Assembly: GCA_011033025.1 (NCBI GenBank)
Contig: WFMF01000071.1
Span: forward strand, 1 to 64,000
Direction of reading: 5' to 3'
Source: Beroe forskalii
Lineage: Eukaryota > Ctenophora > Nuda > Beroida > Beroidae
Length of the DNA stretch: 64,000 nucleotides
Position 1 is the stretch's first letter. Every line of letters starts with the position of its first letter. The notes under the pieces are model-generated. The model searched no databases. It had not been told where the DNA came from and saw nothing but the letters and a program-made list of their open reading frames with translations. Position numbers and translations under genes: made by a program. Shown in pieces: positions 21,149-50,745 of this stretch.

Positions 21149-22253
21149 TTCTCAATTCAATGGAGATTTAATTTGCTACTTTCCTATCTTGTTCGTTATA
21201 AGGCTGATGACGCATCTTTTCGTGTCCATTAGGGCATTGAAAAAGCTGTCAATTAATCATTTACTTGGACTCCAATGTTATGGGAACATTATTTTTTCTT
21301 GCCCGTCGTTAATTAATTTTATTTTTCTTTGCTTGATTATGAGCGGATTGCTTTACGCAATCAAATCTATTCAAATTAATCACGTTTTAGTTAGACAAAA
21401 TCGGCTCTAATTATAATTTTTGCTGAAACTTCTCATAAATAGAGGAAATGAGGCAATACGACTTCGTGAGTTAAACGTTGCTTTCGTCTATAGTAGGTGT
21501 TTTTATTGCTCATCGGTCCACTAGAGAGGTAGCAAGGACCGGTAAAAAGAGCCAATTGTTATCACGTAGCCCAGCTGCCGGTAGTTTTTCCTGAAGCACA
21601 GTGTCCTGTTGCTCTCGAGAGGTGGAGGCTATGGCAGAACACTAAGAACGCTGTGTCCTGCTCTTCCTACCGGAACTTCTCTTTCGACGTGTTGCTTTCT
21701 ACCAATGAGCACACATTTCAGCCATATCACGCTTTCTCACGGTCTAATGTTACACATGGTGCTATATTTGATGCAAATTTTGGCATCCCCACCTTTGCTG
21801 ATATGATCTCATCTGGAGTTGCCTCAATCCCCATATTATGGTATCACGCCTTTCGTGAGTTTGTGTATTCAGCTGAATTGTCTTGTGATTCAAATGATCG
21901 CTTTTTGAAAACAATTTGATCGAAATTTTACCTTCTTCAATTTAACATAGCATAGGTAGATGATGTCTTCAAAAATGGTTTTACCCTATTGCCATTGGAT
22001 ACAAACGGTGTATTGTAAGTTGGTTTCTTTAGAGCACGGGTCGCTCGAAGTGCTTCCCTGCCCTTATAATTACGATAGTTTATTGTGAACGTTTAGCAGA
22101 GAGAGATCTGGGTGGTACTCTCCATTGCAGTAACAATATTACATATAGAGGTGAATCTCCAATTGTTTACATTGGCTTTCATGAGTGGTGGCTCGTACGT
22201 ATGTAATGATCCAACCGATTGAATAATCGATTATCGAGACCTCGCATGGGTAT

Positions 22254-22260
22254 TATATAA
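22254..22260 (+). promoter_or_regulatory. TATA box of alternative promoter 1a, copy A
   Basis: TATATAA sits about 55 bp upstream of the first start codon and is followed by AGAGCTCGAGCC. The arrangement is preserved in copy B at 27998-28004. The first exon and the sequence just after its donor are nearly identical in the two copies. Confidence 0.55.
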
Positions 22261-22313
22261 GAGCTCGAGCCACGGAATCAGCAACATTTCCCCCTAAAAA
22301 CGAATGTATAATT

Positions 22314-22372
22314 ATGGATCGAGCACGGATAATAGGTATTGGAATGTATCGTCATTACGACAGTTTAGAATG
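22314..22372 (+). CDS. First coding exon of isoform 1a, copy A
   Basis: ATG at 22314 opens MDRARIIGIGMYRHYDSLE plus two bases of a Trp codon, then a consensus GTGAGT donor. The exon ends in phase 2. The acceptor ATAG at 26417 supplies G to complete TGG, and the frame runs FRGSRDDHVAMVSGRK into the C2A half-exon. An out-of-frame ATG at 22304 precedes it. The same exon is present unchanged in copy B (28058-28116). The intron here is about 4.0 kb and contains the copy-A-specific insertion. Splicing is inferred from phase and signals only. Confidence 0.55.
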
Positions 22373-23270
22373 GTGAGTTGATGCCTGTTTTACATACCCC
22401 GCTCGTTTAGGGTTGAGAATGTAACTGCTCCCACCCTGTAAGGGGTACACTCCTAGCTTACAACACTGCTAGGTGTACGGGATAGGAGCGTAATGTACCC
22501 CCTCATCTCCATAACACACCACTCATCACCATCATAACAGGGGGATGACACACCACGGCCCTCTGTCCCAAGTAGCTGAATGTCTCTTCTCACACCCGCC
22601 CCTTATCTCTCTGATCGTGCACAACTACCCCTTTTTTTCAAATCTGAATTAAACGTATTTTTTCAACAAAAATAGTTGTACGTATACAAACCTTTGCCAT
22701 TGTTTGCGATATCCATGACTCTATGAGAGCATCCCATTGTAACCACTGCATACGATTGTTATTCCGCCCATGAGCTGTTTGCAGAGGTGTAAGTAGCAAT
22801 CGAGGTGTTAATACTTACGAGTCATATTTTTCAGCTTCTCTAATAATCATTACAATTATGCAACTGCATGAACTCGCAATACTATGCTACTTGCGTCCTA
22901 TTATATCCCGTTTTCTGTTTGTAAAGTTTGTGCCACGAAAAGATGAATTTAAAGCGATTTACCTGGAAGAAATACCTACCTATCTGTTACGTTTCAATTA
23001 GAATTTTTCATCGCATTGCCAATTTCAAATGGTAAGTTGTGCCTACCAATTAATGAAGATGAGGAGATTCTAAACGGAAATGGGTCATATGTTTGATCAG
23101 CTCAGATCCTATTACTTGCTTTTAATTGGCGACACCTATCTAGAAACAGAGCATACGATTTGATTTGCTTGACATGATGAATCAACATCGCCTCGAGATT
23201 AGCGCTACTTAGAGTTCAGAAAAAATACCGGGAAAATGCCAGAATTTCTGGCTACTATCATGGATGGCGT

Positions 23271-23396
23271 ATTAGTTTACCTACAGCTTCACTTGACATT
23301 GACCAATTAGCGCGCGAGTCGGCTGCAAACTAGGTGGCTGATTGGTCAATGCTTGGACGATTTCTCGATCCTATGGGTAAGCTAATATACCTCTGA
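23271..23396. mobile_element. ~125-bp MITE-like element (copy in A)
   Basis: The ends ATTAGTTTACCTACAG and CTATGGGTAAGCTAAT are imperfect inverted repeats. Inside are TTGACATTGACCAAT and its near-complement ATTGGTCAAT. Related copies lie at 20305-20424 and, through the duplication, 28992-29106. Confidence 0.6.
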
Positions 23397-24139
23397 GAAT
23401 AGCAGTGTGGCTCTGTGACTTAGGCGGGCTTTACAGCTTATTAAACCTAATAGCTGAGGGTAACAATGGAGGCAAGAGACGAAAAGTTGCCAGCTTGGTA
23501 CGCATTGGGACATCTCCAATTAGTGGCGCTTTCATAGACATTAGACGGCTTGAAAATCCAGTGCTTGTCAATAGGATGAATATGCAGTCATCCGACCGGG
23601 GTGATTCCAGTTTTCTTCGACCGTTTTTCGATTATTCCCGTTTTCTTCAACTGTCTTTCAGTTTCTTTGAACTATCATTTTCTTTATGTGTTTCTTTATG
23701 TTTCAAATTGAGCTGGTTCTACTTCATGAAGACGGAACCAGATTCCTATGAATAAGTGAATAAGGAAATGTTGGACGTTGCTACGTTGGTGCAAATTTTC
23801 TTGTCTAGATCAGTTACAGTAAATCAATAGAGAGATTCGAGTTAGAAGTTAACTTAGCCGCCAAACTTGTCGTTAATTAAACATAAATACCACGATTATT
23901 GATCTCTTGATTTGCTCTCACCATGTACGAACTTGAACGTTGTTGTAAATACTAACATTGTAAACGCTCATGCAAATATTCATTCAAATTAACATAATTT
24001 CATGTTGACAGAGATGTTAATTGTTCATTTATTGTTATTATATAACGATCGTTATATAATTCTTGCTCCGATAATTTTTGTTATATAACGGCTTCAAAAA
24101 TGGATTTTAAGGGTCAATTAATAATTTTCATAAGATTTT

Positions 24140-24270
24140 AAAATTTTCGAAATTTTGGGGTGTGATAATTTTTCCAGGGGTGTGATAACTGTACAGTTAT
24201 CACACCCCTCAAAGGACAGTTAACACACCCTTCCAAAAATTATCACACACCAAAAAATTAAAACTTTAGA
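24140..24270. repeat. Nested hairpin with 34-bp perfect palindrome
   Basis: The centre is a perfect palindrome with arms AGGGGTGTGATAACTGT and ACAGTTATCACACCCCT. A second, outer pair (TTTTGGGGTGTGATAATTTT and AAAATTATCACACACCAAAA) flanks it. It is part of the copy-A insertion. Confidence 0.8.
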
Positions 24271-24344
24271 ATTTTCTGATTCGTATTTATCTAGACAATG
24301 TAAAATCATCTATCTGACTTTTTAGACAATGCTCTCACTCCCTT

Positions 24345-24865
24345 GCGATACATCAGTGTATACAATATATTACGTTATCTTGTTTTGGTTTGATGAGTTT
24401 ATACATTCATAGTTCACGTTAGTCGTTATATGAGCCGCGCACGCACGTGCCAGTAAAGCATTAAGACCACTAATTGCCCTCACCCAATAACGACACACCA
24501 GTGTATACATTATGTTATCTTGTTTTGGTTTCATGAGTTTGTGTATACTTATTGGTCGTTATATGAGCCGCGCACCCACGTGCCAGTAAGACCACTTGCT
24601 CTCACACCATTAGGCATTACAACACCAGTGTATACATAATATTAAGATATTATTTTATCTTGTTTCGGTTTCATGAGTTTATGTATACTTGTTGGTCATT
24701 ATATGAGCCGCACCCACGTGCCAGTAAGACCGCTTGCTCTCACTCCCATTACGATACAAGTGTATACATATTGTTATCTTATTTTGGTTTTATGAGTTTA
24801 TGTATACCCGGTAGTCGTTATATGAGCCGCGCACCGACGTGGCACAAGGGATACTACCCTCACCA
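24345..24865. repeat. Four-copy tandem repeat, period ~120-140 bp
   Basis: The blocks CAGTGTATACAT..., TTATCTTGTTTYGGTTTCATGAG, GTGTATACTTRTTGGTCGTTAT, ATGAGCCGCGCACCCACGTG and CCAGTAAGACC recur four times with small changes. Embedded in the copy-A-specific insertion. Confidence 0.75.
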
Positions 24866-24959
24866 TTTGTTCTGTTTGCCAATAAATGTACATCCGTTAC
24901 GATGTTACACACTTACGAAATGATCTTTCTATTTTGCTTTGACGTTTCTATACATTTCA

Positions 24960-25190
24960 ATCGACAATTGATGGGGAACGGACATTTCATCTCACGACAC
25001 TTCATCTCATGACACTTAATCTCGCAATATGTCAACTCTACGCAAGGTTAGGGTCTGGGTTAGGGCTAGGGTTTGGTTATGGGTTAGAGTAAGTGTTCTG
25101 GTTTTGGTCAGGGTTGCAGTTGCAGGGTCAGGACAGGGAGATGAAGTGTCCTGAGATGAAATGTCTTGAGATGAGATGTCGCCCACCCCA
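24960..25190. repeat. Hairpin with TTAGGG-like core
   Basis: The left arm (ACATTTCATCTCACGACAC, then CATCTCATGACAC) pairs with the right arm (GAAGTGTCCTGAGATGAAAT, then GAGATGAGATGTC). Between them lie about 100 bp of GGTTAGGGTCTGGGTTAGGG-like sequence. The plan matches the element at 11137-11378. Confidence 0.65.
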
Positions 25191-25449
25191 ATTGAACTTT
25201 AGATAGTGCCTTGGAATCAAAAGATATGACAAAAGTTTATGAAGATTCCGACTTACGTTTTTATTCATACTTTCTTTGGCAAATTGAAATATACATAGTC
25301 ACTCTTTACCTTCTAATCTAAAATTCCTGGCCACTTCGAAGCTTGATATTTTCTAGATTCAATTTCAGGCCATCTAGTTTAGAGGATTTTCTAAATTTGC
25401 TTTTCATTGGAAAAACCAGTGTAGATCTCCCGCCCGTTTCTCGTTATAT

Positions 25450-25632
25450 AATAGATTAATCAAACACCTAAGGATACGTTTATATCAATTATCACACTCG
25501 CCTTCGGCTCGAGTGATAATTGGAATTATTGCACTCGCCTTCGGCTCGAGAAATAATTCGAATTATCACACTCGCTTCGCTCGTGTGATAATTCATATAA
25601 ACGCATCCTTAGGGTGTTTGATTATCCTATAT
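25450..25632. mobile_element. 180-bp inverted-repeat MITE
   Basis: The arms AATCAAACACCTAAGGATAC and GCATCCTTAGGGTGTTTGATT enclose several AATTATCACACTCGC / CTCGAGTGATAATTG blocks, so nearly the whole unit can fold back. It forms the right end of the copy-A insertion. Confidence 0.75.
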
Positions 25633-26417
25633 TAATTTTAATTGTGCGACATGATCATGCTGTTAATTGCCTTAACAAGCTGAAAGGACCACTGCACCAG
25701 CTACCGGCAATTATTTAAATATCAAGGTCCACACATACCATAGATGTTTATTAGTCAAACCATCATCATGGCTAACGTTGGTGAACTGTTAAGTCCGACT
25801 GCCTCTTTTCTTTTCTTGCATTGGAATTACACCCTGATGTAGCATGCCAGTTGGTTGCCTGGTCACGTCATGACATTAATTGACAAAGAATATTGTCAGG
25901 ACATTGTCAATAAAGGCTACTCGTTTGCCGTCTGCCAGAAAAATCAAACACTTTTAATTGACTTGAAAAAGTGTCACTCTTTATCAGTTGTCTGACGTCT
26001 GTAGGTTTATTAGTATTTGACATAACTAATGTAATTTGACCATCTAAATTCTCACTCCTATAATTCTAATTTGATGGAACTCGTTTTAACTTGACAACTC
26101 TCAGCTCCTACACCCTATCAGCTGCAGGTGTACAGGGGGGCTTGAGTCTCCAGATATAACACCAACATGACGTTTTAAAGGGATGGGGCTAACGCTTTAC
26201 ATGTACAACTCCTTCAATCCATTCACCTGACACCCATCTCTAGATATTAACTTGCATATATTATCTAAATGCTTCTAGTTACTGTCAGATCTATATACCA
26301 GTTGTCCAGTTAAACCACCAAAGTTTGACCCCTCTAGTTATTTCTATATACATCCCAGTTTAACCACCCAATTTTGACCCCTCTATTTATTTTTTGACCC
26401 CTTCACACCCCCGATAG

Positions 26418-26596
26418 GTTCAGAGGAAGCAGGGATGATCATGTTGCCATGGTGAGTGGAAGGAAAGCCTCTGTTGTTCCAGAGGACTTCAAGGGTCAGG
26501 CCGGGGCGGTTATCGTACAAGTCAAGAATGCTTCAGACCTTCCCAACAAAGACATGCTCGGAGAGAGTGATCCCTTCGTCGACATGGAATTGGAAG
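26418..26596 (+). CDS. C2A N-terminal half, variant 1a copy A
   Basis: Encodes FRGSRDDHVAMVSGRK, then AGAVIVQVKNASDLP (beta1), NKDMLGESDPFV (calcium loop 1 with both expected Asp ligands) and DMELEG (beta3), ending in phase 1 at GTCAGT. Fused to the common exon at 46323 it makes a complete ferlin-type C2A. It can be read from the upstream exon at 22314 (phase 2 join) or from its own ATG at 26449, which has a good CCATGG context. The predicted protein is identical to copy B. The five nucleotide differences in the conserved half are GCT/GCC, GAC/GAT, AAA/AAG, GGA/GGG and GAG/GAA. Confidence 0.85.
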
Positions 26597-27997
26597 GTCA
26601 GTTATAAGTTGTGAATTAAAATGTTTTAATTTTGCTTTTGATTTTTTATCAGAGTGAGTCCTTTTGTTCAGTACTGTGAAATTTCCTCATAGTGATCTTC
26701 TTTGAGGATCAGTGAATTTACATGGAATTTTCAAATGGAATGTGAAGCCGATGTGAAGCACGTGCAGAGGGCGCGTGACAAGAGTTTGTATACATTCCAA
26801 TAAACTTTAGGGCGGGCGCTAACACCAAATATTCCTCACCACGTGCTTTTCACCACTCGTTATTTCCCACTCGCAATCCAATAGTGTCTAGATCTTTCTT
26901 CACTTTGTTCTCAATTCAATGGAGATTTAATTTGCTACTTTCCTATCTTGTTCGTTATAAGGCTAATGACACATCTTTTTCGTGTCCATTAGGGCATTGA
27001 AAAACTGTCAATTAATCATTTACTTGGACTCCAATGTTATGGGAACATTATTTTTTCTTGCCCGTTAATTAATTTTATTTTTCTTTGCTTGATTATGAGC
27101 GGATTGCTTTACGCAATCAAATCTATTCAAATTAATCACGTTTTAGTTAGACAAAATCGGCTCTAATTATATTTTTTTGCTGAAACTTCTCATAACTAGA
27201 GAAAATGAGGCAATACGACTTCGTGAGTTAAACGTTGCTTTCGTCTATAGTAGGTGTTTTCATTGCTCATAGGACCACTAGGGAGGTAGCAAGGACCAGT
27301 AAAAAGAGCCAATCGTTATCACGTAGCCCAGCTGCCGGCAGTTTTTCCTGAAGCACAGTGTCCTGTTGTTCTCGAGAGGTGGAGACTATGGCAAAAAGAA
27401 CGCTGTGTCCTGCTCTTTCTACCGGAATTTCACTTTCGACGTGTTGCTTTTGACCGATGAGCGCACATTTCAGCCATATCACGCTTTATCACGGTCTAAT
27501 GTTAGAAATGGTGCAATATTTGATGCAAATTCTGGCATCCCTACCTTTGCTGATATGATCTCATCTGGAGTTGCCTCAATCCCCATATTATGGTATCACA
27601 CCTTTCGTGAGTTTGTGTAGTTAGCTGAATTGTCTTGTGGCTCAAATGGTCGCTTTTTGAATACATTTTGATTGAAATTTTACCGTTAATGTTTCAATTT
27701 AAGAAAGAATATAGTTGATGTCTATAAAAATGATTTTTACCCCATTGGATACAAACGGTGTATTGTAAGTTGGTTTCTTTAGAGAGCGGCTCGAAGTGCT
27801 TTCCTGCCCTTATAATTACGATAGTTTATTGTGAACGTTTAGCAGAGAGAGATCTGGGTGGTACTCTCTATTGCAGTAACAATATTACATATAGAGGTGA
27901 ATCTCCAATTGTTTACATTGGCTTTCATGAGTGGTGGCTCGTGTACGTAATGATCCAACCGATTGAATAATCGATTATCGAGACCTTGCATGGGTTT

Positions 27998-28004
27998 TAT
28001 ATAA
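27998..28004 (+). promoter_or_regulatory. TATA box of alternative promoter 1a, copy B
   Basis: TATATAA followed by GAGCTCAAGCC, with the same spacing to the first-exon ATG as in copy A. Confidence 0.55.
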
Positions 28005-28057
28005 GAGCTCAAGCCACGGAATCAGCAACATTTCCCCCTAAAAACGAATGTATAATT

Positions 28058-28116
28058 ATGGATCGAGCACGGATAATAGGTATTGGAATGTATCGTCATT
28101 ACGACAGTTTAGAATG
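28058..28116 (+). CDS. First coding exon of isoform 1a, copy B
   Basis: Same 59-nt coding segment and GTGAGT donor as copy A (22314-22372), with no differences seen in the exon. It ends in phase 2 and joins in frame to the acceptor at 30592. The intron is about 2.5 kb here because the copy-A insertion is absent. Confidence 0.55.
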
Positions 28117-30592
28117 GTGAGTTGATGCCTGTTTTACATACCCCGCTCGTTTAGGGTTGAGAATGTAACTGCTCCCACCCTGTAAGGGGTACACTGCTAG
28201 CTTACCACACTGCTAGGTGTACGGGATAGGAGGAGCGTAATACACCCCCTCATCTCCATAACACACCACTCATCACCATCATAACAGGGGGATGACACAC
28301 CACGGCCCTCTGTCCCAAGTAGATGAATGTCTCTTCTCACACCCGCCCCTTATCTTTCTGATCGTGCACACACACCCTAGTTTTTTCACATCTGAATTAA
28401 TCGCATTTTTCAACAAATATAGTTGTACGTATATAAACCTTGGCCATTGTTTGCGATATCCATGACTCTATGAGAGCATCCCATTGTAACCACTGCATAC
28501 GATTGTTATTCCGCCCATGAGCTGTTTACAGAGGTGTAAGAGTCATATTCTTCAGCTTCTCTAATAATCATTACAATTATGCAACTGCATGAACTCGCAA
28601 TACTATGCTACTTGCGTCCTATTATATCCCGTCTTCTGTTTGTAAAGTTTGTGCCACGAAAAGATGAATTTACAGCGATTTACTTGGAAGAAATACCTAC
28701 CTATCTGTTACGTTTCAATTAGAATTTTTCATCGCATTGCCAATTTCAAATGGTAAGTTGTGCCTACCAATTAATGAAGATGAGGAGATTCTAAACGGAA
28801 ATGGGTCATATGTTTGATCAGCTCAGATCCTATTACTTGCTTTAAATTGGCGACACCTATCTAGAAACAGAGCATACGATTTGATTTGCTTGACATGACG
28901 AATCAACATCGCCTCGAGATTAGCGCTACTTAGAGTTCAGAAAAAATACCGGGAAAATGCCAGAATTTCTGGCTACTATCATGGATGGCGTATTAGTTTA
29001 CCCACAGGTTCACTTGACATTGACCAATTAGCGTGCTAGTCGGCTGCAAACTAGGTTGCTGATTGGTCAATTTTTGGACGATTTCTCCACCCTATGGGTA
29101 AGCTAATATATACCTCTGAGAATAGCAGTGTGGCTCTGTGACTTAGGCGGGCTTTACAGCTTATTAAACCTAATAGCTGAGGGTAACAATGGAGGCAAGA
29201 GACGAAAAGTTGCCAGCGTGGTACGCAGTGGGACATCTCCAATTAGTGGCGCTTTCATAGACATTAGACGGCTTGAAAATCCAGTGCTTGTCAATAGGAT
29301 GAATATACAGTCATCCGACCAGGGTGATTCCAGTTTTCTTCGACCGTTTTTCGATTATTCCCGTTTTCTTCAACTGTCTTTCAGTTTCTTTGAACTATCA
29401 TTTTCTGTATGTTATTCTTTATGTTTCAAATTGAGCTGGTTCTACTTCGTGAAGAGAGAACCAGATTCCTATGAATAAGTGAATAAGGAAATGTTGGACG
29501 TTGCTACTTTGGTGCAAAATTTCTTGTCTAGATAAGTTACAGTAAATCAATAGAGAGATTCGAGTTAGAAGTTAACTTAGCCGCCAAACTTGTCGTTAAT
29601 TAAACATAAATACCATGATTATTGATCTCTTGATTTGCTCTCACCATGTACGAACTTGAACGTTGTTGTAAATCCTAACATTGTAAACGCTTATGCAAAT
29701 ATGCATTAAAATTAATTAACATATCGTGTTGACAGAGATGTTAATTGTTCATTTATTGTTATTAATTTTAACTTCATTGTGCGACACGATCATGCTCTTA
29801 ATTGCCTTAACAAGCTGGAGGGACCAACCACTGCACCAGCTACCGGCAATTATTGAAATATCAAGGTCCACGCATACCATAGATGTTTATTAGTCAAATC
29901 ATTATCATGGTTTGCATTGGTGAATTGTTAATTCCAACTGCCTCTTTTCTTTCTTGCATTGGAATTACACCCTGATGTAGCGTGCCAGTTGGTTGCCTGG
30001 TCACGTCATGACAGTAATTGGCAAAGAATATTGTCAGGACATTGTCAATAAAGGCTACTCGTTTGCCGTCTGCCAGAAAAATCAAACACTTTTAATTGAC
30101 TTGAAAAAGTGTCACTCTTTATCAGTTGTCTGACGTCTGTAGGTTTATTAGTATTTGACATAACTAATGTAATTTGACCATCTAAATTCTCACTCCTAAT
30201 TCTAATTTGATGGAACTCGTTTTAGCTTGACAACTCTCAGCTCCTACACCATAGCTGCAGGTGTACAGGGGGCTTGAGTCTTGATATAACACCACCATGT
30301 TTTAGGGGGATGGGGCTAACGCCTGACATGTACACCTCGTACCCTCCATTCACCTGGCTGACATCCATCTCTAGATATTAACTTGCATAATATATTATGC
30401 ATGCCTCTAGTTACATCTAGAACCTCATACCAGTTAAACAACCCAAGGTTGATCCCTTGACACATGTAATAAGCCTCTAGTTGATAGTTGTATCCATCTA
30501 CATCCACGTTTAACCACCCAACTTTGACCCCTCTAGTTATTTCTACATCCCAGTTAAACCACGCAACTTTGACCCCTTCACACCCCCAATAG

Positions 30593-30771
30593 GTTCAGAG
30601 GAAGCAGGGATGATCATGTTGCCATGGTGAGTGGAAGGAAAGCCTCTGTTGTTCCAGAGGACTTCAAGGGTCAGGCCGGGGCGGTTATCGTACAAGTCAA
30701 GAATGCCTCAGATCTTCCCAACAAGGACATGCTCGGGGAAAGTGATCCCTTCGTCGACATGGAATTGGAAG
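30593..30771 (+). CDS. C2A N-terminal half, variant 1a copy B
   Basis: Same reading as 26418-26596: the acceptor ...CCCAATAG, then FRGSRDDHVAMVSGRK, the NKDMLGESDP loop and the DMELEG end, phase 1, donor GTCAGT. The alternative start is ATG at 30624. The conserved half differs from copy A only at third codon positions, all synonymous, which argues that both copies are used. No upstream C2 half precedes it in this copy, so it must splice over other variants to the common exon at 46323 about 15.6 kb downstream. Confidence 0.85.
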
Positions 30772-31068
30772 GTCAGTTATAAGTTGTGAATTAAAATGTT
30801 TTAATTTTGCTTTTCATTTTTTATCAGAGTGAGTCCTTTTGTTCAGTACTGTGAAATTTCCTCATAGTGATCTTCATTGAGGATCAGTGAATTTACATGA
30901 AATTTTCGAATGGAATGTGAAGCACGTGCAGAGGGCGCGTGACAAGAGTTTGTATACACTCCAATAAACTTTAGGGCGGGCGCCAAACCAAATATTCCTC
31001 ACCACTCGCTTTTCACCACTCGTTATTTCCCACTCGCAATCCAAATGTCTAGATCTTTCTTCACTTTG

Positions 31069-33770
31069 TGACTTTGAATTTTCATCGTGAGATCACTGTA
31101 TGTATCTGGTATCAATCATATGGACTATGATTCAGCTGCATATCCTCACAATTCTTGTGCAATCAATAGTTTGATTTTTTTTCATTCAAAAACAAAACCC
31201 ACCGATTAACCGATATTATTTTCAAAAGTCACGCTTTATTCCAGCAACATATAATTTCGGAGAAATCAGTATTATTTCCATTGTACCGCCCAACGGAAGC
31301 ATCGATCAAATTGTTATGTGTTAAGTATCCGATTAATATGGGTGGACATTTCCTGTTAAATATTATTAACAATGTGGTAAGTACCTGATTATCTCCATTG
31401 CTACTTTGATCGGTTGCCGAGTTCCGCCCGATTTTCACTTACAGAAGTCAAATTTGTCCTTGCCGTGAATTTGACAGATTTCTGCAACCAAAGAAAGGAT
31501 GGTTTTTAAGATGTGCACTCCAGCCTAATTCTTAATGGTTTATTATCATCGAATATCAATCTCTCCTGCGGTAGTCTGGTGATTAGTTAATCCTATTAAC
31601 TACCAACATTACTGGAACGATTATTTTACGTCAGCAGATTAATCCAAATACTCCTATTGTCGCCATATTTTACAGATTGACGTTTTTAAATAATATTATC
31701 AGCTCATCTGTAAAACTTCTAGACATTTGTTTCACAATGTCTGCTTGATACTTTGACAATTATCCTGCCCTGATTCTGATGCCTTTGTTTTCATTAAGTC
31801 AAATGATCTTAGGATATTTATAAGATCATTTTAAGCACTGAATTCCACCGATTTAGTATCTAGTGACTGAAAACTTAGTCACTAACTGAAACATCAGTGA
31901 CTGTCAGTTACTGATGTTTCAGTTTTCAAAGGCATTGTAAGTTCGTCGCTTTAATCCACCATTTAGCCGCTCATGTGATTATTAGCCGCTTTTGGTTATA
32001 TGATTATGAACAAGTGCAGCCACACTTCCCACTAGTTTACTGGAGCCTGGAAGATTCACACCATGAAACAGTGCCCACCATCCCACTACTCACTCCTCAA
32101 GTTTACATAGATACCCTAATCTGATTGGTCTCCCACCCTCCTCCTCGATCAATCAACCCGTTCTGCGCTTGTCTCATCTACCCTCCACCAGTATACCAAG
32201 CACCTTCTCATCATACACCAACCATCATCTCATCATACACCGACCATCATCTCATCGCCATGTGCCAGCAATATCTGATGGCATTATAATCTCCTTCTCT
32301 GATGGTGGTGGGCCCAGTAAATGCTGCTTCCTCCTCCAGTGACCGGAAATGAGTAGTTACACGGGGCACGGGGGCAGGGTCATTATCTCATCCTGACAAG
32401 ATATACCCCTCTCTTCCTCCCACTCCAGGAGAGAACCAGGAGGGGATGGTGTGAGATCGTCAATTCAACGTGTTAAATCCTGATAATGACATCACTCGGT
32501 AGTGTCTAATGTTCCTATACGACCCATATTCACCTTCAGCTTCGCCTCCTCGCACCATCAGATCCGCTGTAATTAGTGCAATATTTGACAGGATATCAGA
32601 CAAAATATGGCGTTATAATAATAACTTGATAATAATAGCAATAATAATAACAACGGTGGCTAATGGCTAATGGCAATAGCGATTTAAAGTTGGCAGGTGG
32701 ATACAAGTTCAAAATTTGTTAATTTGTTTGTGTCAAACTTTCGGGATGACGAAAAGGCACTTTTTCTTCCTTTTAAAAGTTAAATGATTACTAAGACTTA
32801 CCAGTCAAAAGTGCCCTTTCGGATGTAGTCGGCGCGCAGTCTTGGAATGGTAGTTTTTCTATCATGATTGATAATCTAAAAGGAGAAGGTTGTCCTTCTT
32901 ACTTAAGATGTCACTTCATTTAAATCAAATCCTAAAGTTTTAAACCAAAATTTATTAGAATTTATAACTGATCAGTTCAAGCCATGTGCCCCTCATGCAA
33001 TCAAGAACCACTTTCAGACGTGTTAGGTATTCCTCAAATTCATTTGTCATTGCGCATTTGCCAAATTCAAAAGTCGTATCTAATTAAAAATTTGGATCAA
33101 TTCATATCATGCTCGATTTGCATGAAAGTATTTACTACTCAACCATGGAAAGTAGGCACTATAGACACTAGACACTGTGGACTGGACTTATCTTTATAAC
33201 ACCCACCCAATAACTCCACAATGACGAAAAACAATGAAGGAGCCTCATGGCAACATTTCATTCTTTGAACGTGTTGTTTAAAGAGAGTAACAATCTCTCC
33301 AGCCAAATGTGAATGAAACTGTTGAATAGAACATCTAATTTAATTAAATGGTTTAAATAATAATTGTTAGTTTATTGATGAGTTGTACATCCTAATTTCC
33401 TTTCGACCCAGCCTTGCAGACTTCTTATCAAGTCCTGAGTTTTTAACATTAAAAAGTTTCGAAAAGGCTGTCCTTAGTCTGTGCAATAGTAGCAACGAAT
33501 CCAGATTTATTCTAAGGAGGCCACTTTTCGTAAAAGATGTAATCGGTTAATGCCTAGAACAATAGGTTGACGGTAAAATCTTCTTGTGTTTGGCAAATGC
33601 CTTGCAAAGTAGCTAAGTGAGCATTCGGTAACTCAAAGTGTGATCAATGTGTCTGCCAATTGAGACAATATGGTTCATGAAATTGAGATAATATCTGGTT
33701 CACCGTATTAATGGCTTCTTCTTACAGTATCATGAGCTTTTGGCGTTGTTAGCTGTTTATTTGGCTATAT
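31069..33770. other. Non-coding sequence between alternative promoters
   Basis: Contains a short hairpin (ACTGAAACATCAGTGACTGTCAGTTACTGATGTTTCAGT, about 31885-31923) and simple CATCATCTC repeats near 32220. No frame with a recognisable domain. This is the 5' intron for the isoforms that start upstream. Confidence 0.4.
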
Positions 33771-33947
33771 TGAAACATGTTTGACAGTTTACTAGGTGAT
33801 TTCACTTCAATTTGCAAAAACATGTTTCAGTTTTTGCTGCTGTATGTTCGGAAATGTCGGAATGGGTCTGCAATCTGCATAATAATTTATGTCAATTCTA
33901 AAGTTTTATTTTTCTTCAATCTTTATTGTTATCTTTTTCATCGGTCA

Positions 33948-34208
33948 TTTGAAAATATAGAATACGAAAATGTAGAATGCGAAAGTGGTTATGAGATGAT
34001 TCAACTGATGGATTCTGGTTACTGGCCGAATCGGTATTGTATCATGGGTCATAGCCTATTTGAAGTTGTCAAGAAACGGATCAGTATACAGTCCACACCT
34101 CTGCAGTGTCCAGGTGCTTTGATCCAGAACAGGGACTGCACCTGCCGACCTGTTATAAAATATAAATTGAGAGGGTGCCAATCTACCATGTACTGGGTAA
34201 TGCAATAA
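33948..34208 (+). CDS. Possible cysteine-containing exon, unknown
   Basis: Within a frame open from 33777, the part from about 33948 has protein-like composition with spaced Cys residues (NVECESGYEMIQLM, PNRYCIMGH, PLQCPGALIQNRDCTCRP, LRGCQSTMYW). It ends at a GTAATG donor-like site near 34197 or at the TAA at 34206. I recognise no domain. It could be a nested or repeat-derived exon, or chance. Confidence 0.2.
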   Translation, partial: FENIEYENVECESGYEMIQLMDSGYWPNRYCIMGHSLFEVVKKRISIQSTPLQCPGALIQNRDCTCRPVIKYKLRGCQSTMYWVMQ

Positions 34209-34209
34209 T

Positions 34210-37200: not shown

Positions 37201-38330
37201 AGGTGTTTTCTCCGGAGTTTTAAGGTCTAATTGGTTGATGGTTCATTGCATTATGTAATTGTAAACAGTGGGAGTCATTCTGCGCGGCCGGCTATAAACT
37301 GCAATTAGCTTCTAAAACTACGGTAGAAAATTCGGGAGCTGCCGCTCACTTGCTCAATGGCCGTGGAAAGAAGGCAGTGTGACGTCACCAACTCAGTTAA
37401 CAAACCATGGTGATGCCATCACTCACTTCCGCAAATCATTGTCCGAGAGTTTCAAGCGTATCTGGCATATCTTATAGTAATTAAGATTACCCAAATCCTC
37501 AAATAATGGAGGAATCTACAGTGTCGCACTTTGACTCAGAAGGTGTGACCACCACCAGAGTCCGGTGGCCGTTGGGTCTGCGGCAGGACAATACGATGTC
37601 TCTGAGTACACCGCACCTCCCCGTGACGTCACACACCAATTACTGTATTAGTTGGGCGTGCCTCTCCAGTAGCTAGTTGCTACTACTGCCAGGCCACGCA
37701 TCATAATGACTGGCACATGTCTACCTCCTCAGATACAATGGTCACGTGACTTCGGTCTGTCACGTGACTTCAGTCTGTCACGTGACATCAGGGAGAGAGA
37801 GAGAGAGCAGCTCAGATGAGAAAAGATCGCGCTGGACTCCTCCCTCCTCCTCACTCTCCCATCTCTCTACTTGGGAGATTGTAATTACAGAGAGCCTCTG
37901 AAATGCGAATCTTTCAAAATGAGTGCACGCACTGGGTTGATTATTCACATGGGGAAATAGATACTTAAATATAAAGTAAGATTATGGTGAAGCCGATGGC
38001 GGTGGGTTAATATAATAACAATAATCATGATGTTTGGTCACCTGACATGTAGAGCACCAATCAGAGAAGAGATTGCAACTGCTCATCCAATGTACCGGGA
38101 CTTGACAGCAGATGCTGCTATAACGAGTATAAGACTTGATTGGGAAAATATTGATATCATACGTCTGGAGGCCCCTACCAAGCTGTCACAGCTGTATTAC
38201 ACACTTCTCTATTGCATTGCCCGTGTGCATGATGACCCTCTGAACACCCTGACAACTGATCCGTTAGAATTACAACCGAGCATCCCTGAAGCGTGAACGC
38301 TTGCCTACACATCCCTGAATTCTCATCCCT
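34210..38330. other. Non-coding sequence upstream of variant 1b
   Basis: The frames at 34712-35077, 36959-37258 and 38027-38296 are open but match nothing I know. The last ends only 38 bp before the 1b start and might be leader sequence. A CACGTGAC triplet sits at 37743-37784, and a GA run follows it. Confidence 0.35.
37741..37788. promoter_or_regulatory. Three palindromic E-boxes (CACGTG) at exact 18-bp spacing
   Basis: CACGTG occurs at 37743, 37761 and 37779 within an 18-bp unit CACGTGACTTCRGTCTGT. Each is a perfect bHLH-type binding palindrome. They lie about 550-600 bp upstream of the 1b coding exon, so they may belong to its promoter. That link is inferred from position only. Confidence 0.4.
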
Positions 38331-38333
38331 GAC

Positions 38334-38559
38334 ATGACTATAGCATCCCGTTTCTTGTCTGTGAACTCTGAGGATGTCCTGGTTGAAGAAAAGAAGAAGG
38401 AAGATAAGAAAGCCGCTGATGGTGCCCTGGATGCAGACCAAGCTAACAGCCCTTACCACAGTGGTAGACCTGGTCAGCTGAGTGTCAAAGTCAGGAAAGC
38501 TAACAGCCTGCCTCTGATATCAGGACCTGCTCATCGCTTTGTGGAAGTGGAGTATTCAG
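38334..38559 (+). CDS. C2A N-terminal half, variant 1b (calcium ligands lost)
   Basis: ATG at 38334 with an in-frame stop just upstream. About 46 residues of acidic/basic leader (SEDVLVEEKKKEDKKAADG) precede a C2 beginning GRPGQLSVKVRKANSLP, then LISGPAHRFVEVEYSG, ending in phase 1 at GTATTT. It joins the common exon at 46323 in frame. Where variant 1a has KDMLGESDP, this variant has a SGPAHR stretch with no Asp, so loop 1 should not bind calcium. The long charged leader is unique to this variant. An alternative acceptor (ACTATAG, 38344) would make it internal. Confidence 0.75.
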
Positions 38560-41280
38560 GTATTTCAATTATTTGCCAAGTTAAATGTAATTTTAATCTA
38601 ACGTAATAATGCACCCTAGTAGTCTTAAAACGAGGAAATGATATCTGTTACATCAACTGAGTTTTGTCCGGCAACTTTGGAAATAAACAAGCCTTGAAGG
38701 ATTCAGGGATTTATAATTTTTGGAGCATCGAAGAGGGATGAAAAATTAAAAGCTCTGCTCCCCATGAATACATTGGGTAGAAAAACAATGATATGTCAAG
38801 TGGTTACAAAATGTTAAATGCTACCCTAATTCCACACCCTAATTCCACACATGGTGGTTGTAGCTTAAAATTATAAAAACTTGCTACTATCTTGCCGCCG
38901 ACTATCGCTGTCAAGCAGTCCTACCTCATGTCGGCTCTTTGAGAACTCCTAGTCAATTCTGAATTAGCAAAGCAATACAAAGTAATAGCTTCAACATCAT
39001 TTGCCCAGGTTATTTCCCTTTGGAGATATTATTTTGCCATTATTTTGTATTCACGTCCTCGAGTGCTCGACATAATGGGCTCCATTTTGCCTTGCCTAGT
39101 GGCTAAATACTTGTACAAAATACACTCAATGGATTACGATAATTCCCGATATTCTTAACATTAAATTTCTATCATTTCATCAATTTAAGCTGTGCAGCAG
39201 TGCTGTAAAATCCTCTGTTGAAATCCCTGGGCTTATGTATAGTTCAGTAGTTCACGTCCACGGACCCACAAAGAATAAAGGGATAATGACCTTGTTATTA
39301 CGAGTCTCTAGGTAAGGGGCCAAGGGCCACCCAGTCAGCTTTGTCCTCGGGCAGAGTAGGCGCGATACTGGCCTAGACGGATCGCTCAATTTACCAATGT
39401 ATCTTAGTATTTTGCCACTATTATCTGGCCTAACACTCACTCAGCTCTTTGTTGCCATCTGGTTAGTCTAATGCTCTGATGAATGGGAGGATTAATGTGA
39501 GTAAAAGTGTATCTTCATTTTAGGATTTTCCACCGAGAGTCGTCATGGGTCATACAGAAAATTTATTAGCAAAGTAGCAAACAGGGACAAAGGTTCCAAT
39601 TCCAGAACCGTCGTTGACAAATAATCAATTTCCAGTATTATATTACTCAGCCGAATTGTTATAGAACCTCCTGGAGCGCACAGTAGGATATTTTCAAATT
39701 GCAGTCGCTGGCATCACTTGAAACTTCTTTAATTATAAAATTGTCCGACATTTGAAATTTGAACTGACTATTATTGAATATCTAAACAATTAGACTCAGC
39801 CGCACCTTTCACTGCACCACATTCAAGGAACACCCTATTTCAACAGCTAATTTACCAGTCATAACCTACTATTGATCCCTCAATATAACTCACTTTATCA
39901 CAACTTCTGTAATGCTTCACCTCGACCTCATGAACCCCTCCAAGTTTTTTCTTTAGACATTGCAGGTAACGAGGTCCTCTACCTATTGTTCTCAATACAG
40001 GCCTTAGGTAATGAGTTTCTCTACCAAGCGTACTCAGTACAGATGTCCTATCTTGTGATAAGGGGTTGCCACCTCATCGCTTTCATGGCTATATATGGCT
40101 GAATTGAAAATACTATTATCTACTGCAATATATTGCATACCCGCAAAGCAGTAGTTATTGGTACTAGATTTGTATTCGGGTGTGATTAGTGATAGTAGGT
40201 TCAGTCGTAATAATTGACTTCGACCTATAATCGACAAATTATCATCGATAATATAATATGGTCTCTATGATAATATACATAGTGGCCTCGGAAGCGTTTG
40301 CAAACTTGTAGCTTTAGTCGATAGTTATTCTTTTATTGTACAAATTGCTAAATTGTCCTGTAATTTCTTCTTCCAGGAAACCGTTAAATCTCGGGCTCTT
40401 CGCAGCCTACTCTAGTTTTTAGAGAACAATACTCTGTATGATAATGAAAACCGTACTTACTTCTAAGGAAAATAAGTTCTACTGTCTCTTTTTCGTTTAG
40501 CCCTCCTTGTTCATAAGGGCTGAAAAGGCACGTTCGCTAAAACTAAAAGAAGGTGGAGTCGTGCAACTCGTATTTATTATTTGTTTGGAAAGTTACCAGA
40601 GTAAGACTGGAAAGTTACAATTACGTTTGGAAGGAACGAGCGGTGGAATATTTTCAAAGTGCATCCAAGATTCCAAGATAGTATGGCATCTTGATTGATG
40701 AATGGCACTTCTGGACAAGAGCTCTTTTTTGATTTAAGTAACCATCCGATTGAATTGTTTTTGTCATTATAGATCGCAATGAAAAGTAACTAGATGAGAG
40801 CAAATTGTTTCATGGATAATAAGAACATTCCATCAACCATGCACGGAACCCTATCGTTAGATTCACAGCTGACAATTGTTCATTTGGTAATTGATTGGTG
40901 GTCGGAGGGAGGCTCCGTGATGTACTACGAAAATAGCTCTGCACATGTGGTTACATTGCTTTATTACAGTGCCATGTAGTTGAAGTCTACAGCTGCCCCC
41001 TTAAGATTGATTGCAGTTGCAGGATGCAGATGCTCTTTTGCGTATGTGGTGCAAAAGCATACTTTATCCCGATTAAAAGAGAAATTGTCCTTGCTCCACT
41101 TTCTGTGGTGAGGGTGAGCTATTATAGTGTTTTTTCATCGTCACTCCAATGTTTTCTGACCATTTAATTTTTTAAAATTTTAGTCCACAGTAATGACCTT
41201 CAAGAAATGTATTGTTGGGACTGTATCCAACTTTGCTGATGTTAAAATGTAGCTATTCAAGCAATCATAATGTTATGGCA
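38560..41280. other. Non-coding sequence between variants 1b and 1c
   Basis: AT-rich, with no supportable gene. The frame at 40507-40698 has vaguely C2-like hydrophobic alternation but lacks a donor in the right phase and any C2 motif, so I do not call it. Confidence 0.4.
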
Positions 41281-41284
41281 GCTC

Positions 41285-41508
41285 GAGTGACGCTTGTATG
41301 GTCAATTTATTGTGACGTTTTTTGTATCACCTTTAAGTGAGCATCTGAGCTTGTCGAGTGGTCTGTGACATCCAATTGAAGTACAATTGTGTATTGTGGC
41401 CACTGTACACAATTGTACTTCAATTTGATCACTCGACAAGCTCAGATGCTCACTTAAAGGTGATACAGATACAGTCAAAATAAATTGACCATACAAGTGT
41501 CACATGAC
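41285..41508. mobile_element. ~220-bp foldback MITE
   Basis: Nearly perfect inverted repeats of about 100 bp: GTGACGCTTGTATGGTCAAT at the left end and ATTGACCATACAAGTGTCAC at the right. Inside, CACCTTTAAGTGAGCATCTG pairs with CAGATGCTCACTTAAAGGTG, and the centre is AATTGAAGTACAATTGTGTA / TACACAATTGTACTTCAATT. No coding capacity. Confidence 0.85.
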
Positions 41509-42143
41509 GTGTGCTGCCCTGGATTACACCTGCTTTGCAAATGAGCATTATAGGGCATTACGATAAGTCCGACCATGTGCTGTATGATTATCATCTAATG
41601 CCCCTCTGATCATCAGACATTACTGCCACATGTGTTCTGACTCCGTGCAATTTCTTGAGAAAAGTGAGCTTCTGAGATATACTCTCATCAATAGTAAATG
41701 GGTCGATGCTTGCACTTGGGAGTGGAGACTCACATACCAGAACTGAATCGTATCTCCAACGGTTATTGGGGTTTTTCCGCTAAAAGATAGGTCGTCTCTT
41801 TTACATCCTAGTTCAGAACTTCTTCAGTAGTTCAGAACATCTTCAGGCTTCTTTCAGCTTCTATCCCATCCTTTTTCATATCAAATACCAACGGTCTTGA
41901 TCCTGTGACCTAGTAGTAATTTTCATCTACTCAAGTCTTCATACCGGTTACCAGCAGTCCTGACTCCTGAACATGTGATCAAGTACCGACCTACTCATGT
42001 CACCATTCCAGAGTTAATTGATTCTTCCAGCTGCCCTCTTCACTTCCTCCCAATGCCCCATATTGCACGCACATACAACTTGTTTGATTTGATTTCCGCT
42101 ACACACTTATAGATTGGTTTGCTTCTTTACTCCACATGAATAG

Positions 42144-42279
42144 GATCCTGAAAGACTACGCTCTGAGGACCCGCTACTTGGACGACTTTCTGTCAAGGTT
42201 CTAAATCTGAGATCAGACCCCACGTCTGGGTATTACTACTTCAAATGCAATGCAGTCTACGTGGACATCCTGTGTGAAA
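42144..42279 (+). CDS. C2A N-terminal half, variant 1c (probably internal exon)
   Basis: After an acceptor-like TTTACTCCACATGAATAG, the frame DPERLRSEDPLLGRLSVKVL continues NLRSDPTSGYYYF, then KCNAVYVDILCE. It ends in phase 1 at GTTAGT, so the junction residue with the exon at 46323 becomes Arg instead of Gly. An in-frame TAG lies immediately upstream and there is no ATG, so an unseen 5' exon ending in phase 0 must supply the start. The second loop-1 Asp (SDP in variant 1a) is replaced by Asn (CNA). It resembles 1b in its RLSVKV/QLSVKV strand. Confidence 0.6.
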
Positions 42280-43100
42280 GTTAGTTTTCAAATGAGGGTG
42301 TTCTGACTTATGATTTTAATCAATTGATCAAGCTAGTTTTCTTATCATTGAAATGCTGATTTTCAAGTTTCTTTATTCTTCTATTGAGATTCTTCTGATT
42401 AACTCTGATTTTTATCAGTCATTCGTATGATGATTACTAACCATACTGATCAATACCATGAATAATGATATCGTGGATTATTGAATGTGTTGAGTGCAAG
42501 ATTTCATGAAGGTGAAAAGAAGTTTGCTATCATGAGCTGTGAGAAGATCTGCCACCAATGAAAGGCAGCCGGACATGAGTCATGAGGTTTTACTGATCTC
42601 TTATCCCCACATGGGCTATTAGATTGTATTGACGAGATGATCTCTCATCTTCGCATGAACCATGAGATTGTATTGATCTCTGATCTCCAACTGTCTGCTA
42701 TTCATAGACAGTTTATATGTCAACTCCTCAGTGTCTGAGGATCTGACTCAGATCTGCTTGGAAGTCTTAGGCCTTCGTGAGAGGTAATTACATCTGAGAA
42801 TACTTCATGGAGGCAAATAATGCAGACAACAGAGCTGTACTGCGTACATTACCATGATTATTATTACCTTACAGCTACATATTGCATATAGTGCAGACAT
42901 AATACACTACTATAAGGTCATGATTCATGCACATCATACCTACCTTGTGACACATAAAACTTTACCGACGTTCATTGATTAAGCATATAAAATTACCCCA
43001 CAACACCTGTACACTTCACAGTGATATATCGAGCTAGAGCAGTAGCTAGGTGGGTTGCTGCCGAATCACCTGCTGCAAAAGGTGGGAGGGGCAACGCTAT
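42280..43100. other. Non-coding sequence after variant 1c
   Basis: No supportable frame or repeat beyond simple degenerate ATGAG/GATCTC repeats near 42540-42720. Confidence 0.4.
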
Positions 43101-43104
43101 TTTA

Positions 43105-43525
43105 GGCTATACATAGAGACATAGCCTTACAGATTTAGCCCTATTAACATAGCCCTAGAGATATAGCCCTAGAGACATAGCCCTATAGACTTAGCCCTCG
43201 AGACATAGCCCTAGAGATATAGCTCTTGAGATATAGCCATATAGACTTAGCCCCAGAGAAATAACCCTACAGACATTGCTCTATCGACTTATCCCTAGAG
43301 ACATAGCTCTCAGCTCTATAGACATAGCCTTCGAGACATAGCCCTAGAGACATAGCCCTAGAGACATAGCTCTACAGGCTTAGCCCTAAAGACTCAGTCC
43401 TAGAGACATCGTCATATAGACTTAGCCCTGGAGACATCACACATAGCCTTAGACTCTAGAGACATAACTCTAAAAGACATAACCATAGCCCTCGAGACAT
43501 AGCCTTAAAAATCATTAACCAAGAA
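43105..43525. repeat. 14-bp minisatellite (CCCTAGAGACATAG)
   Basis: About 28 degenerate units of GACATAGCCCTAGA with TTAG/CATAG alternation. Non-coding. Confidence 0.8.
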
Positions 43526-44697
43526 GCCATATCCCTTGAGACAGCCCAAGAAACCTAAGTCTAAAATAGCATTGCCCCTACACACACTGCAAGTTGGAGG
43601 AACCTCGTTCGTTGCTTCCAGTGTACCTCCCCTTGGGAGTATTTTCCCACACACACACACGCTATCACACCACAGGGACTAATTGGATAACTACCCCACA
43701 CGTGTAATTACCTTGAAAACCCGTCCTAATTACTGAGCAAGGTCCTACACGGTCCCGCCATCTACGTGGTGTCAGGGGTATTGTGTGCAGAGATTCACCG
43801 CTCTGGACGTTTTGCAAGTGTTTCTTTGTTGTTATTCTGTGACAGTACAGGGCAATTGTTATTCTATGTCAGACCTCCTGTTGTAAGTAGTCGTAATGAC
43901 TTTCGATTTGCATGATAGTAACGGCTTTATATTTGGACGAGCATGATTCCATCGGGCAATCCGGCAATGTAGTGTCTATTATCAATCCACCGCACTCCAA
44001 ATTTCTGCACTTTTTACCCCATTTATCCAAGGACAAGGAATATGATATTTGGTGTTCTAAATGATTTGACAACCAATCAGTCAGAAAGTTGACGATGTTA
44101 TCTTCGTGGCGACTCTTTGACGAGACATTTCATTTGACGCCTGTCTGAGAGCTTGCAGTTTTCAGAAAATTTCCGATTATCGATGTTTGAATTTAAAGAA
44201 TAAAGCCTCGAAGCCTATAATCGAGGAATCTTTCCATTTTAGCATAGGATCAAGGTAGGTAAGTAGGGTGTAAACTGTAACATAATATTAGCGCCGCATA
44301 CACTATTGCTTTAGTTTCCGCAGAGCCAATGTTTCTACTAGTACATTACCCGAAGTAGAGCGGAATAGACGCGTTTATATGCACCGTTTTTGTATCATTA
44401 CTATGTGGCAGTAATGATAACACGGGCAGCTTCATTCGTAATATTAGGCTCTCAGTAGCTGCTGTAGTAGTTGTAATAATGATCAGAGATACGAAGTGCT
44501 AAGTGGAAACATGTCCATCGTACCTGCGGTGAATACCATACCATTGTTAGGGGTATTCCCGCCCATTTCCCCTCTTCTTCTGGCGTGGTATCTCTCTCGT
44601 GCATACCGGCACCAGCTCTGCCTTCCTCGTCATCAGTTACTTGATATACTCGGCTCCACACCCTACTCACTGTCGGATTCTTGGGCTTCCCGGACTA

Positions 44698-44940
44698 TAT
44701 GCCGACACTGGACTTAATGCCGACACTTGACTTGATGCCGACACTTGACTAGATGCCGACACTGGACTTGATGCCGACACTGAACTTGATACCGACAATA
44801 GGCTTTATGCCGACACTGGAATTGATGGTTGATGCTGGAATTGATGCCGACACTGGACAATTGATGCCGAAACTGGACTTGATGCCGACACTGAACAATT
44901 GATGCCGAAACTGGACTTGATGCCGATACTGGACTTGAAA
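44698..44940. repeat. 18-bp minisatellite (GATGCCGACACTGGACTT)
   Basis: About 13 units with substitutions and a few insertions. Because 18 is a multiple of 3, it leaves an open frame on the minus strand (44749-44949) that is a repeat artefact. Confidence 0.85.
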
Positions 44941-45910
44941 TGTTTCCAAAATGCCTACAGACGATTTGCCGATGGTGGTGACACTAAAAACTTACCCTCA
45001 ATTTAATATTCCAACGAATATATAAAGCCGAAGAGAAGAGATATTAATGAATATGGGGACCTGCTACAATAAAATTATTTGTACTACATTCTTTAGAAAG
45101 CCAACAATTCAAAGATTGCCCCTTTCAATCCCCTTCAGCGACAATTTAAATGATTGAATCTACGTTGCTGCATTGCTTCAATGGTGTTTTGTCTTCTCGA
45201 GAATACCCTTGCCATCTTGGTACTACCAATTTTATTGCGTCATTTATTTAATATTTACTAGAAATTGTAAGATTGTTGGCTGTTCACCGTCTAGATTGAG
45301 TGTAGCAAATTCATTTCAGAGCTTTATACCCCCTATTAGTTACAGATTGCCTACCGTACTGGATCATCAACCTTTATAAACATGAGTTCGATAACAAACA
45401 TTGCTGATTGATGAATAGTGTAATTTCAGGGGCAGCACCTGTTTTAAATTCACCTACTAGCTTACTAGGCTAATTACCTGATTAGGGGCAGTGGTGGATT
45501 CTAATGTTAATTTGTTAATATCCGTGGGCGTTTAGACCGAGATACCGGAAGGCGGAAACTATCGCCAGGTCACGTGTTTGCATCGCTTCAGGATCTTTAT
45601 GGATCATGACTACTTGTGCAATTGTTTCCACGATGTTTCCTACTTTCAAATATTTATTTCCCTTCGTAGACCTGCAATATTTCTCTTTCAAGTGATTTCA
45701 TAATTTGTTATTTATGTTTTCTTATCGGTAACTATGGAAATGAAAGTTTAAAAACAATAACAATTCCTTTGCTCCCTGCAATGAATAGAGGCACTGCATG
45801 CCGGGGTTTTGAAGAGTGTCTTAGTCCTCCCTGCTGCAGCGTAAAACCCACCCACAGCCCACTCAGACGCCTCCCACCTTCAGAGACCCACCTACCCTTT
45901 GTAACACAGA

Positions 45911-46034
45911 TACACCTGGCATGAAATTATGAGTGGAGAGGGAACAGTTCATATCCTTGTCAGAAACGCCCAGAACCTCCAAAATGTGGAGCGTTTTGGT
46001 TACAGTGACCCCCATGTAATACTTGAAATAGAAG
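45911..46034 (+). CDS. C2A N-terminal half, variant 1d
   Basis: From ATG at 45929: MSGEGTVHILVRNAQNLQ, then NVERFGYSDPHV and ILEIEG, ending in phase 1 at GTTGGT. It is the variant closest to the common exon 46323, with an intron of only 288 bp. Loop 1 keeps the second Asp (SDP), but the first is Glu (VER), so calcium binding is probably weakened. An acceptor-like CTTTGTAACACAG at 45910 would also allow an internal reading through YTWHEIM. A four-codon upstream frame (ATG 45921) overlaps the start. Confidence 0.82.
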
Positions 46035-46322
46035 GTTGGTATGCCCACTCCATCCCCTCGGGTTGCGAAGATTTAAAGGGGTTTCGTTGAATCAGGAAAT
46101 GTTCAGAAGGTTATGAAAGATTTCGTCAGATTACATTATCTTGATAATCTTAATACTCAAAATTACGTTGGACCGTTCTGGTCTTCAGGACTGCATTTTT
46201 TTAGTGTCTTGGTCTCTACTGGAGGAAGGCCAGAGAATTTTGTTTCCATTTTCCAATTCTTTTAAAAGTTTTTATTCTCTGAATTCGTTTGGAACACTCT
46301 GCAAACCTAGCTTTCTTTTCAG

Positions 46323-46378
46323 GGATCAAAAGAACAACCAGAGTCATACACAGTGAATTGAATCCAGAGTGGAACGAG
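46323..46378 (+). CDS. Common exon: C2A beta4 region
   Basis: After TTCTTTTCAG the exon completes a Gly (or Arg) codon, then reads IKRTTRVIHSELNPEWNE and ends in phase 0 at GTTCGT. KRTxxVI and LNPxWNE are hallmarks of ferlin C2A domains (compare dysferlin KKRTKVI and NPVWNE). Every alternative half-exon upstream ends in phase 1 and fits here. It is the fixed second half of the domain. Confidence 0.88.
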
Positions 46379-50614: not shown

Positions 50615-50745
50615 CACACGGTCACACACTACACAGCTGAGGCTTAGGTCGTACCTCTAAGGCGTAAATAGCCAAGAAGTGTATGAGAGGTGTTTGTTCA
50701 ATGGTCAGTAGTTCAGTACTCAGTTGCCTTGCCGAATACCGACGC

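Follow-up and report, generated by a model that had tools for sequence, protein, structure and literature searches.

A predicted cluster of alternative first exons for the start of C2A in a ferlin gene of the ctenophore Beroe forskalii

Can a single ferlin gene offer a choice of starts for its first C2 domain, and how many? The question is raised by a stretch of 64,000 nucleotides from the ctenophore Beroe forskalii (assembly GCA_011033025.1, contig WFMF01000071.1, positions 1 to 64,000, forward strand; hereafter the window), in which a sequence-only reading had noticed five exons encoding the first half of a C2A domain and one downstream exon that fits them all. Membrane fusion and repair in response to calcium are driven by ferlins. 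Contig C814, in an assembly of 216.1 Mb and 1134 contigs, begins with the window, which contains the 5' end of a ferlin gene whose exons extend to ~106.9 kb of this contig. Judged from its sequence, this gene probably carries a 24-kb cluster of alternative first exons joined to one constant C2A exon.

All five half-exons (named A in two copies, C, D and E; Table 1) are open; each one stops in phase 1 just before a GT and is in frame with the constant exon at 46323, so that the coordinates, phases and fit first proposed for them were borne out by reading frame and GT. The constant exon reads GG ATC AAA AGA ... GAG, with AG before and GT after, and is the only one among the cluster exons that accepts phase 1. 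Since the acceptors are in phase 2 (A), in phase 0 (D) or absent (C and E), while the donors are all in phase 1, joining one half-exon to another would break the frame, and the mutual exclusivity claimed earlier is supported to that extent. The further claim that no second-half C2 exons lie between the half-exons also stood: neither a motif search judged by eye nor an ungapped scan, in which the constant exon scored 98 and the runner-up place 26, found another fitting C2A second half in 18–75 kb. The half-exons had been described as strands beta1 to beta3; with the strand numbering that we assume for the two halves, they cover strands 1 and 2 with calcium loop 1 between them, and strand 3 falls within the constant exon.

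The boundary of the swapped part is identical to that in human. The PDB chains 4iqh and 4ihb, which are C2A isoforms of one gene, dysferlin, differ only upstream of GVKKRTKV... (79 residues compared), and this residue aligns with GIKRTTRV... of the Beroe product, so the human parallel drawn in the sequence-only reading is exact. The variants of the cluster likewise diverge only upstream of GIKRTTRVIHSELNPEWNE, with variant D reading RIKRTTRV..., because its half-exon ends in A and the junction codon becomes AGG (Arg) instead of Gly. A, C and E have, by sequence, the features of a dysferlin-type switch, being first exons with their own ATG and phase-1 donors that encode the start of C2A. Transcription would start at A, C or E, and perhaps also upstream of D; the phase-1 donor of the chosen half-exon would be spliced to the sole constant exon, and the resulting ferlin would have a full C2A whose loop 1/strand 1–2 face is any of three or four, the rest of the protein being constant. 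Exclusivity would be built in through promoter choice plus phase.

The feature had originally been started at 22314, which turns out to be the first base of a 59-nt initial exon with ATG and a TATA box upstream (TATATAAG, located 60 nt before it); the phase-2 donor of this exon matches the phase-2 acceptor of half-exon A, and no other phase-2 initial exon in 18.0–26.4 kb combines a TATA box with a donor that scores 8/9 or better. A possible extra first exon (MEGVMQRSFKKECHSFIIENIPNSK, phase 2) lies at 20750–20826, preceded at 75 nt by TATAAAAAG; its phase suits the same acceptor, and its donor (AAG/GTAAAA) is below the 8/9 cut. Variants C and E have no acceptor AG at the exon start and both begin with ATG. 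The phase-0 acceptor of variant D means that an upstream coding exon is needed, and the sole phase-0 candidate with a donor of at least 8/9 in 38560–42143 (39479–39496) has no TATA box near it. N-terminal extensions of 46–48 amino acids are found in variants C and A. Each variant is presumably transcribed, from a separate promoter; the earlier proposal of separate promoters finds sequence support for A, where the TATA box occurs in both copies, but for C and E it comes down to an ATG without an acceptor.

A half-C2 scan seeded with the window's own exons is circular, and the evidence used here is therefore restricted to scans with outside seeds and leave-one-out scans. With a profile of eight C2 halves, none from the cluster, E reached 24.1 bits, clearly above the best value in 20 block-shuffled copies (11.2), and both copies of A reached 13.0; the best place on the minus strand scored 8.2. 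Leave-one-out profiles gave 26.7 for E, 22.2 for A and 6.5 (a partial match) for C. When each half-exon was fused to the constant half, the Pfam C2 model scored 67.9 bits for A, 63.0 for E, 54.1–55.9 for C and 44.7–45.4 for D (44.7 with Gly at the junction, 45.4 with the correct Arg), compared with 39.8 for the constant half alone. The corresponding E-values (A, 1e-18; E, 3.3e-17; C, 5.5e-15; D, 1e-11; C and D trimmed to roughly control length) are all better than the best of 44 random fusions (5.7e-11), D only narrowly, so that the search of fused products suggested at the outset, run here with Pfam C2, came out in favour of all four. The random fusions came from a pool of 271 sites, 144 after thinning, of which 45 were drawn randomly and one near-duplicate was dropped; a stricter pool, with only 21 stop-free sites and several of these from one satellite, was set aside. 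As to codon use, overlapping stop-free windows never reached the value of exon A (0/1727) or exon C (0/707). The two A copies encode an identical protein, all five of their differences being synonymous third-position changes (P 0.001, simulation). C is credited on account of its codon use and fused-domain score. A, C and E can be called good and D a candidate, which would give the cluster three alternative first exons and possibly a fourth; 'at least four distinct variants' was too firm a count.

Calcium loop 1 lies in the swapped part. Variant A keeps both loop-1 aspartates (in alignment with synaptotagmin-7), E has Glu and Asp at these positions, C has neither aspartate, and neither does D, for which the alignment is weak. 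As in a dysferlin-type switch, the isoforms thus differ, by sequence, in their calcium-loop residues, and first-exon choice is predicted to act as a selector of calcium dependence for C2A: A would be calcium-competent, E reduced, and C and D calcium-independent. Promoter choice would then set the calcium dependence and the lipid or partner binding of C2A, as in human dysferlin. The best PDB matches of the E fusion are myoferlin (1.1e-24) and dysferlin (7.4e-16), both whole-chain values summed over several C2 domains; it also matches the C2A chains 4iqh (1.5e-9) and 4ihb (8.8e-7).

The identity of the gene is given by its downstream exons (Table 1). FerI is flanked by C2 exons, FerA and FerB exceed their Pfam cut-offs, and all PDB matches of the two DysF exons are dysferlin or myoferlin, including 4cah and 2k2o, which we take to be inner DysF domains; Pfam itself gave only Pex24p on the first DysF exon (25.5 bits, below the 26.8 cut-off) and no match on the second. 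A single C-terminal transmembrane segment, by hydropathy, presumably resembles the ends of known ferlins. Together with the C2 exons these domains support both the earlier ferlin and C2A identification and the assignment to the DysF type (type 1; dysferlin/myoferlin-like). On its upstream side the ferlin adjoins a CDT1 gene whose end is near 18024, which makes 18.0–46.3 kb the probable 5' region. In the intron after the constant C2A exons there is a long DNA-transposon-like element with inverted ends (GGGCCAAATCGCACGGGGACAAAAATCGTG) at ~48130–50610, and two large tandem-repeat arrays (50741–52195 and 56102–57159) also lie in a ferlin intron.

Table 1. Features of the ferlin gene on contig C814 (positions are the same in the window and in the contig).
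Feature	Position	Strand	Remarks
Tandem duplication unit 1	21149–26908	+	Real duplication or allelic copy joined by assembler
TATA box (TATATAAGAG), putative promoter of variant A copy 1	22254–22263	+	60 nt before ATG 22314
Variant A initial coding exon, copy 1 (MDRARIIGIGMYRHYDSLE/W)	22314–22372	+	59 nt, ATG; phase-2 donor
Variant A half-C2A exon, copy 1	26418–26596	+	Acceptor phase 2, donor phase 1; both loop-1 Asp
Tandem duplication unit 2	26908–31069	+	Without ~1.6 kb found in unit 1
TATA box, variant A copy 2	27998–28007	+	Repeat of copy 1 TATA box
Variant A initial coding exon, copy 2	28058–28116	+	Identical to copy 1
Variant A half-C2A exon, copy 2	30593–30771	+	5 differences from copy 1, all synonymous
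Variant C first exon	38334–38559	+	ATG, 46-aa N-terminal extension; no loop-1 Asp; donor phase 1
Possible variant D initial exon (MNGRIN)	39479–39496	+	Phase-0 donor AAT/GTGAGT; speculative
Variant D half-C2A exon (tentative)	42144–42279	+	Acceptor phase 0, donor phase 1; no loop-1 Asp
Variant E first exon, half C2A	45929–46034	+	ATG; Glu and Asp at loop-1 positions; donor phase 1
Constant exon, second part of C2A (GIKRTTRVIHSELNPEWNE)	46323–46378	+	Phase 1 in, phase 0 out
Next constant C2A exon (TFTWKRYTPLTEESILLIKVYDYEKILKN...)	46611–46699	+	Phase 0 in, phase 2 out
C2 exon	75364		
FerI	77613–77891		Flanked by C2 exons at 75364 and 78480
C2 exon	78480		
FerA	82677		Pfam 38.9 bits, cut-off 33.9
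FerB	84339 and 87693		Pfam 107 bits, cut-off 25
DysF exon	88428–88667		5 PDB matches, all dysferlin or myoferlin, including 4cah (2.3e-17) and 2k2o (2.5e-17)
Second DysF exon	88803–89003		3 PDB matches, all dysferlin or myoferlin
Further C2 exons	91468 and 100110		
C-terminal transmembrane segment	106689–106877		Contains RPATSFLWFTSPWKSLRYIIWNNYKWYIIGGLILLLILAMVGLFIY; by hydropathy

Several results speak against a cluster of this size, or against single members of it. With the outside profile, A exceeded the shuffled control only narrowly, and C and D fell outside the top 12 places; D likewise stayed outside the top 8 in the leave-one-out scan. Codon use is unremarkable for D (253/3697 windows reach the exon) and for E (390/6412), and the codon score of the initial exon at 22314 is negative. 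No TATAWAR was found within 300 nt upstream of the start codon of C or E. The A fusion, with myoferlin as its best match, ranks synaptotagmin-7 second, above dysferlin, and the C2A assignment consequently rests more on gene context than on likeness. Within exon A there is also a consensus-like donor (ATG/GTGAGT, 26449–26457) directly after an in-frame ATG, and this internal donor at 26452 means that exon A could be used differently, e.g. in a shorter form.

The two copies of A raise another reading, which is compatible with a cluster of alternative first exons and which we judge to have an even chance of being right: the assembler may have joined two haplotypes end to end, so that there is one A exon only. 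The sequence-only reading had one variant duplicated, and both copies (26418 and 30593) are indeed present, but they may be an assembly artefact. The two units stand head-to-tail, with identities of 94% and 87% in two aligned parts. A second head-to-tail pair occurs in the same gene (C814:83783–87133 and 87156–90090), with the FerB–DysF exons duplicated; copy 1 of FerB carries a 1-nt and a 2-nt indel that jointly garble about ten residues, and this pair probably represents joined alleles, or else a damaged exon copy. Noncoding substitution overlaps between the pairs (first pair, 4.0 and 6.5%; second pair, 8.0 and 4.2%), and silent changes make up 5/5 of the exon differences in the first pair and 19/20 in the second (three correctly framed blocks; the exception is near a block start, where the exon edge is uncertain; block 84658–84803, in which both copies encode the same residues, was left out of the count). 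Two duplications of similar divergence with mostly silent exon changes are the pattern expected of joined haplotypes. However, the seamless joint and the 1.6 kb missing from unit 2 are as in a true tandem duplication, and a search of the assembly with two 5' pieces gave no additional copy, short repeat matches aside. In addition, the other three ferlin loci of this genome (134 kb) contain no non-overlapping copy pair of at least 500 bp above 84% identity, so that tandem pairs are not simply everywhere; this base rate was taken from the 134 kb plus 13 short loci, overlapping satellite arrays being left out.

An arrangement essentially like the human one, with a two-way switch between A and E and with C and D as chance open frames or relics, is in our view unlikely. 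A profile built without the window's own exons singles out A and E only, and D is near the control level, but C has an ATG start, a phase-1 end, coding-type codon use and a fusion that scores 55.9 bits, where the constant half by itself has 39.8. Separate genes upstream, one for each half-exon and each with a second half of its own, are highly improbable: CDT1 is the neighbour on that side, a further C2A second-half exon is not recognisable in 18–75 kb, and phase together with this absence led us to discard the explanation.

A cluster of alternative first exons has counterparts in several known systems. In human dysferlin, a gene of muscle repair (canonical C2A and DYSF-v1; 4ihb and 4iqh), alternative first exons replace the start of C2A up to the same aligned junction residue, as here; that gene has two such exons, whereas the Beroe gene, from a distant lineage, has three well supported and possibly four, with 46–48-amino-acid extensions in C and A. 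Fuson in 2014 is said to have found that the human swap changes the calcium dependence of C2A. The vertebrate UGT1A locus is a cluster of first exons, each encoding an N-terminal part and spliced to common exons; it is alike in architecture, but the protein is unrelated, the cluster is larger, and its promoters are proven where those of the ferlin are predicted. The exon 4 and exon 6 clusters of arthropod Dscam1 likewise have variable exons that encode half a domain, although they use internal mutually exclusive splicing and the ferlin mostly first exons. According to excerpts of PMC2923515, C2A of human dysferlin uses an alternate exon 1, and excerpts of PMC9333456 state that positively charged residues in dysferlin C2Av1 prevent calcium binding. 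The Drosophila ferlin misfire has tissue-specific promoters and alternative transcripts, and the figure legends in excerpts of PMC1853072 give C2B–C2F only; a swap of a C2A half does not appear in these excerpts. Among the open-licence papers listed in our literature searches, judged by title and abstract opening, none describes a ferlin first-exon cluster beyond the human pair, or such a feature in ctenophores. The half-C2A alternate exon itself is already known; the larger cluster in a distant lineage is what would be new.

It is conceivable, though on balance doubtful, that first-exon choice of a C2A half is an animal-wide, possibly ancestral, means of tuning the calcium dependence of ferlins and has been enlarged here into a cluster that acts as a three- or four-position selector of the C2A loop with the human junction residue. 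If the cluster itself is real, a single gene would offer natural C2A variants with and without the calcium-binding loop-1 aspartates on one backbone, the role of C2A calcium binding would become directly testable, and it would become apparent if the dysferlin switch seen in human has an old origin or arose twice.

Three other ferlin loci of this genome lie on C201, C406 and C495. One C2A first half was found at C495, and none at C406 in the 40 kb examined. At C201, the closest paralogue (C201:160001–196167), the C2A third exon lies at 196078, with no recognisable first or second exon, and no C2A first half, in the 36 kb upstream of the matching exon; C2A of this paralogue may be lost or far away.

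Two further observations agree with a ctenophore as the source of the genome. A glutamate receptor encoded in it has the ML032222a receptor as its best PDB match (5cmc, 5cmb and 4yki), above kainate and AMPA receptor chains; ML names presumably denote Mnemiopsis genes. On a 13.3-kb mitochondrial contig, cox1 is very divergent and reads TGA as Trp (table 4), and AGA falls at what we take to be an invariant Arg position. No tRNA was detected in this contig by ARAGORN under the bacterial code. Rapid evolution, a lack of tRNAs and table 4 are among the mitochondrial traits given for ctenophores in excerpts of PMC6991124.

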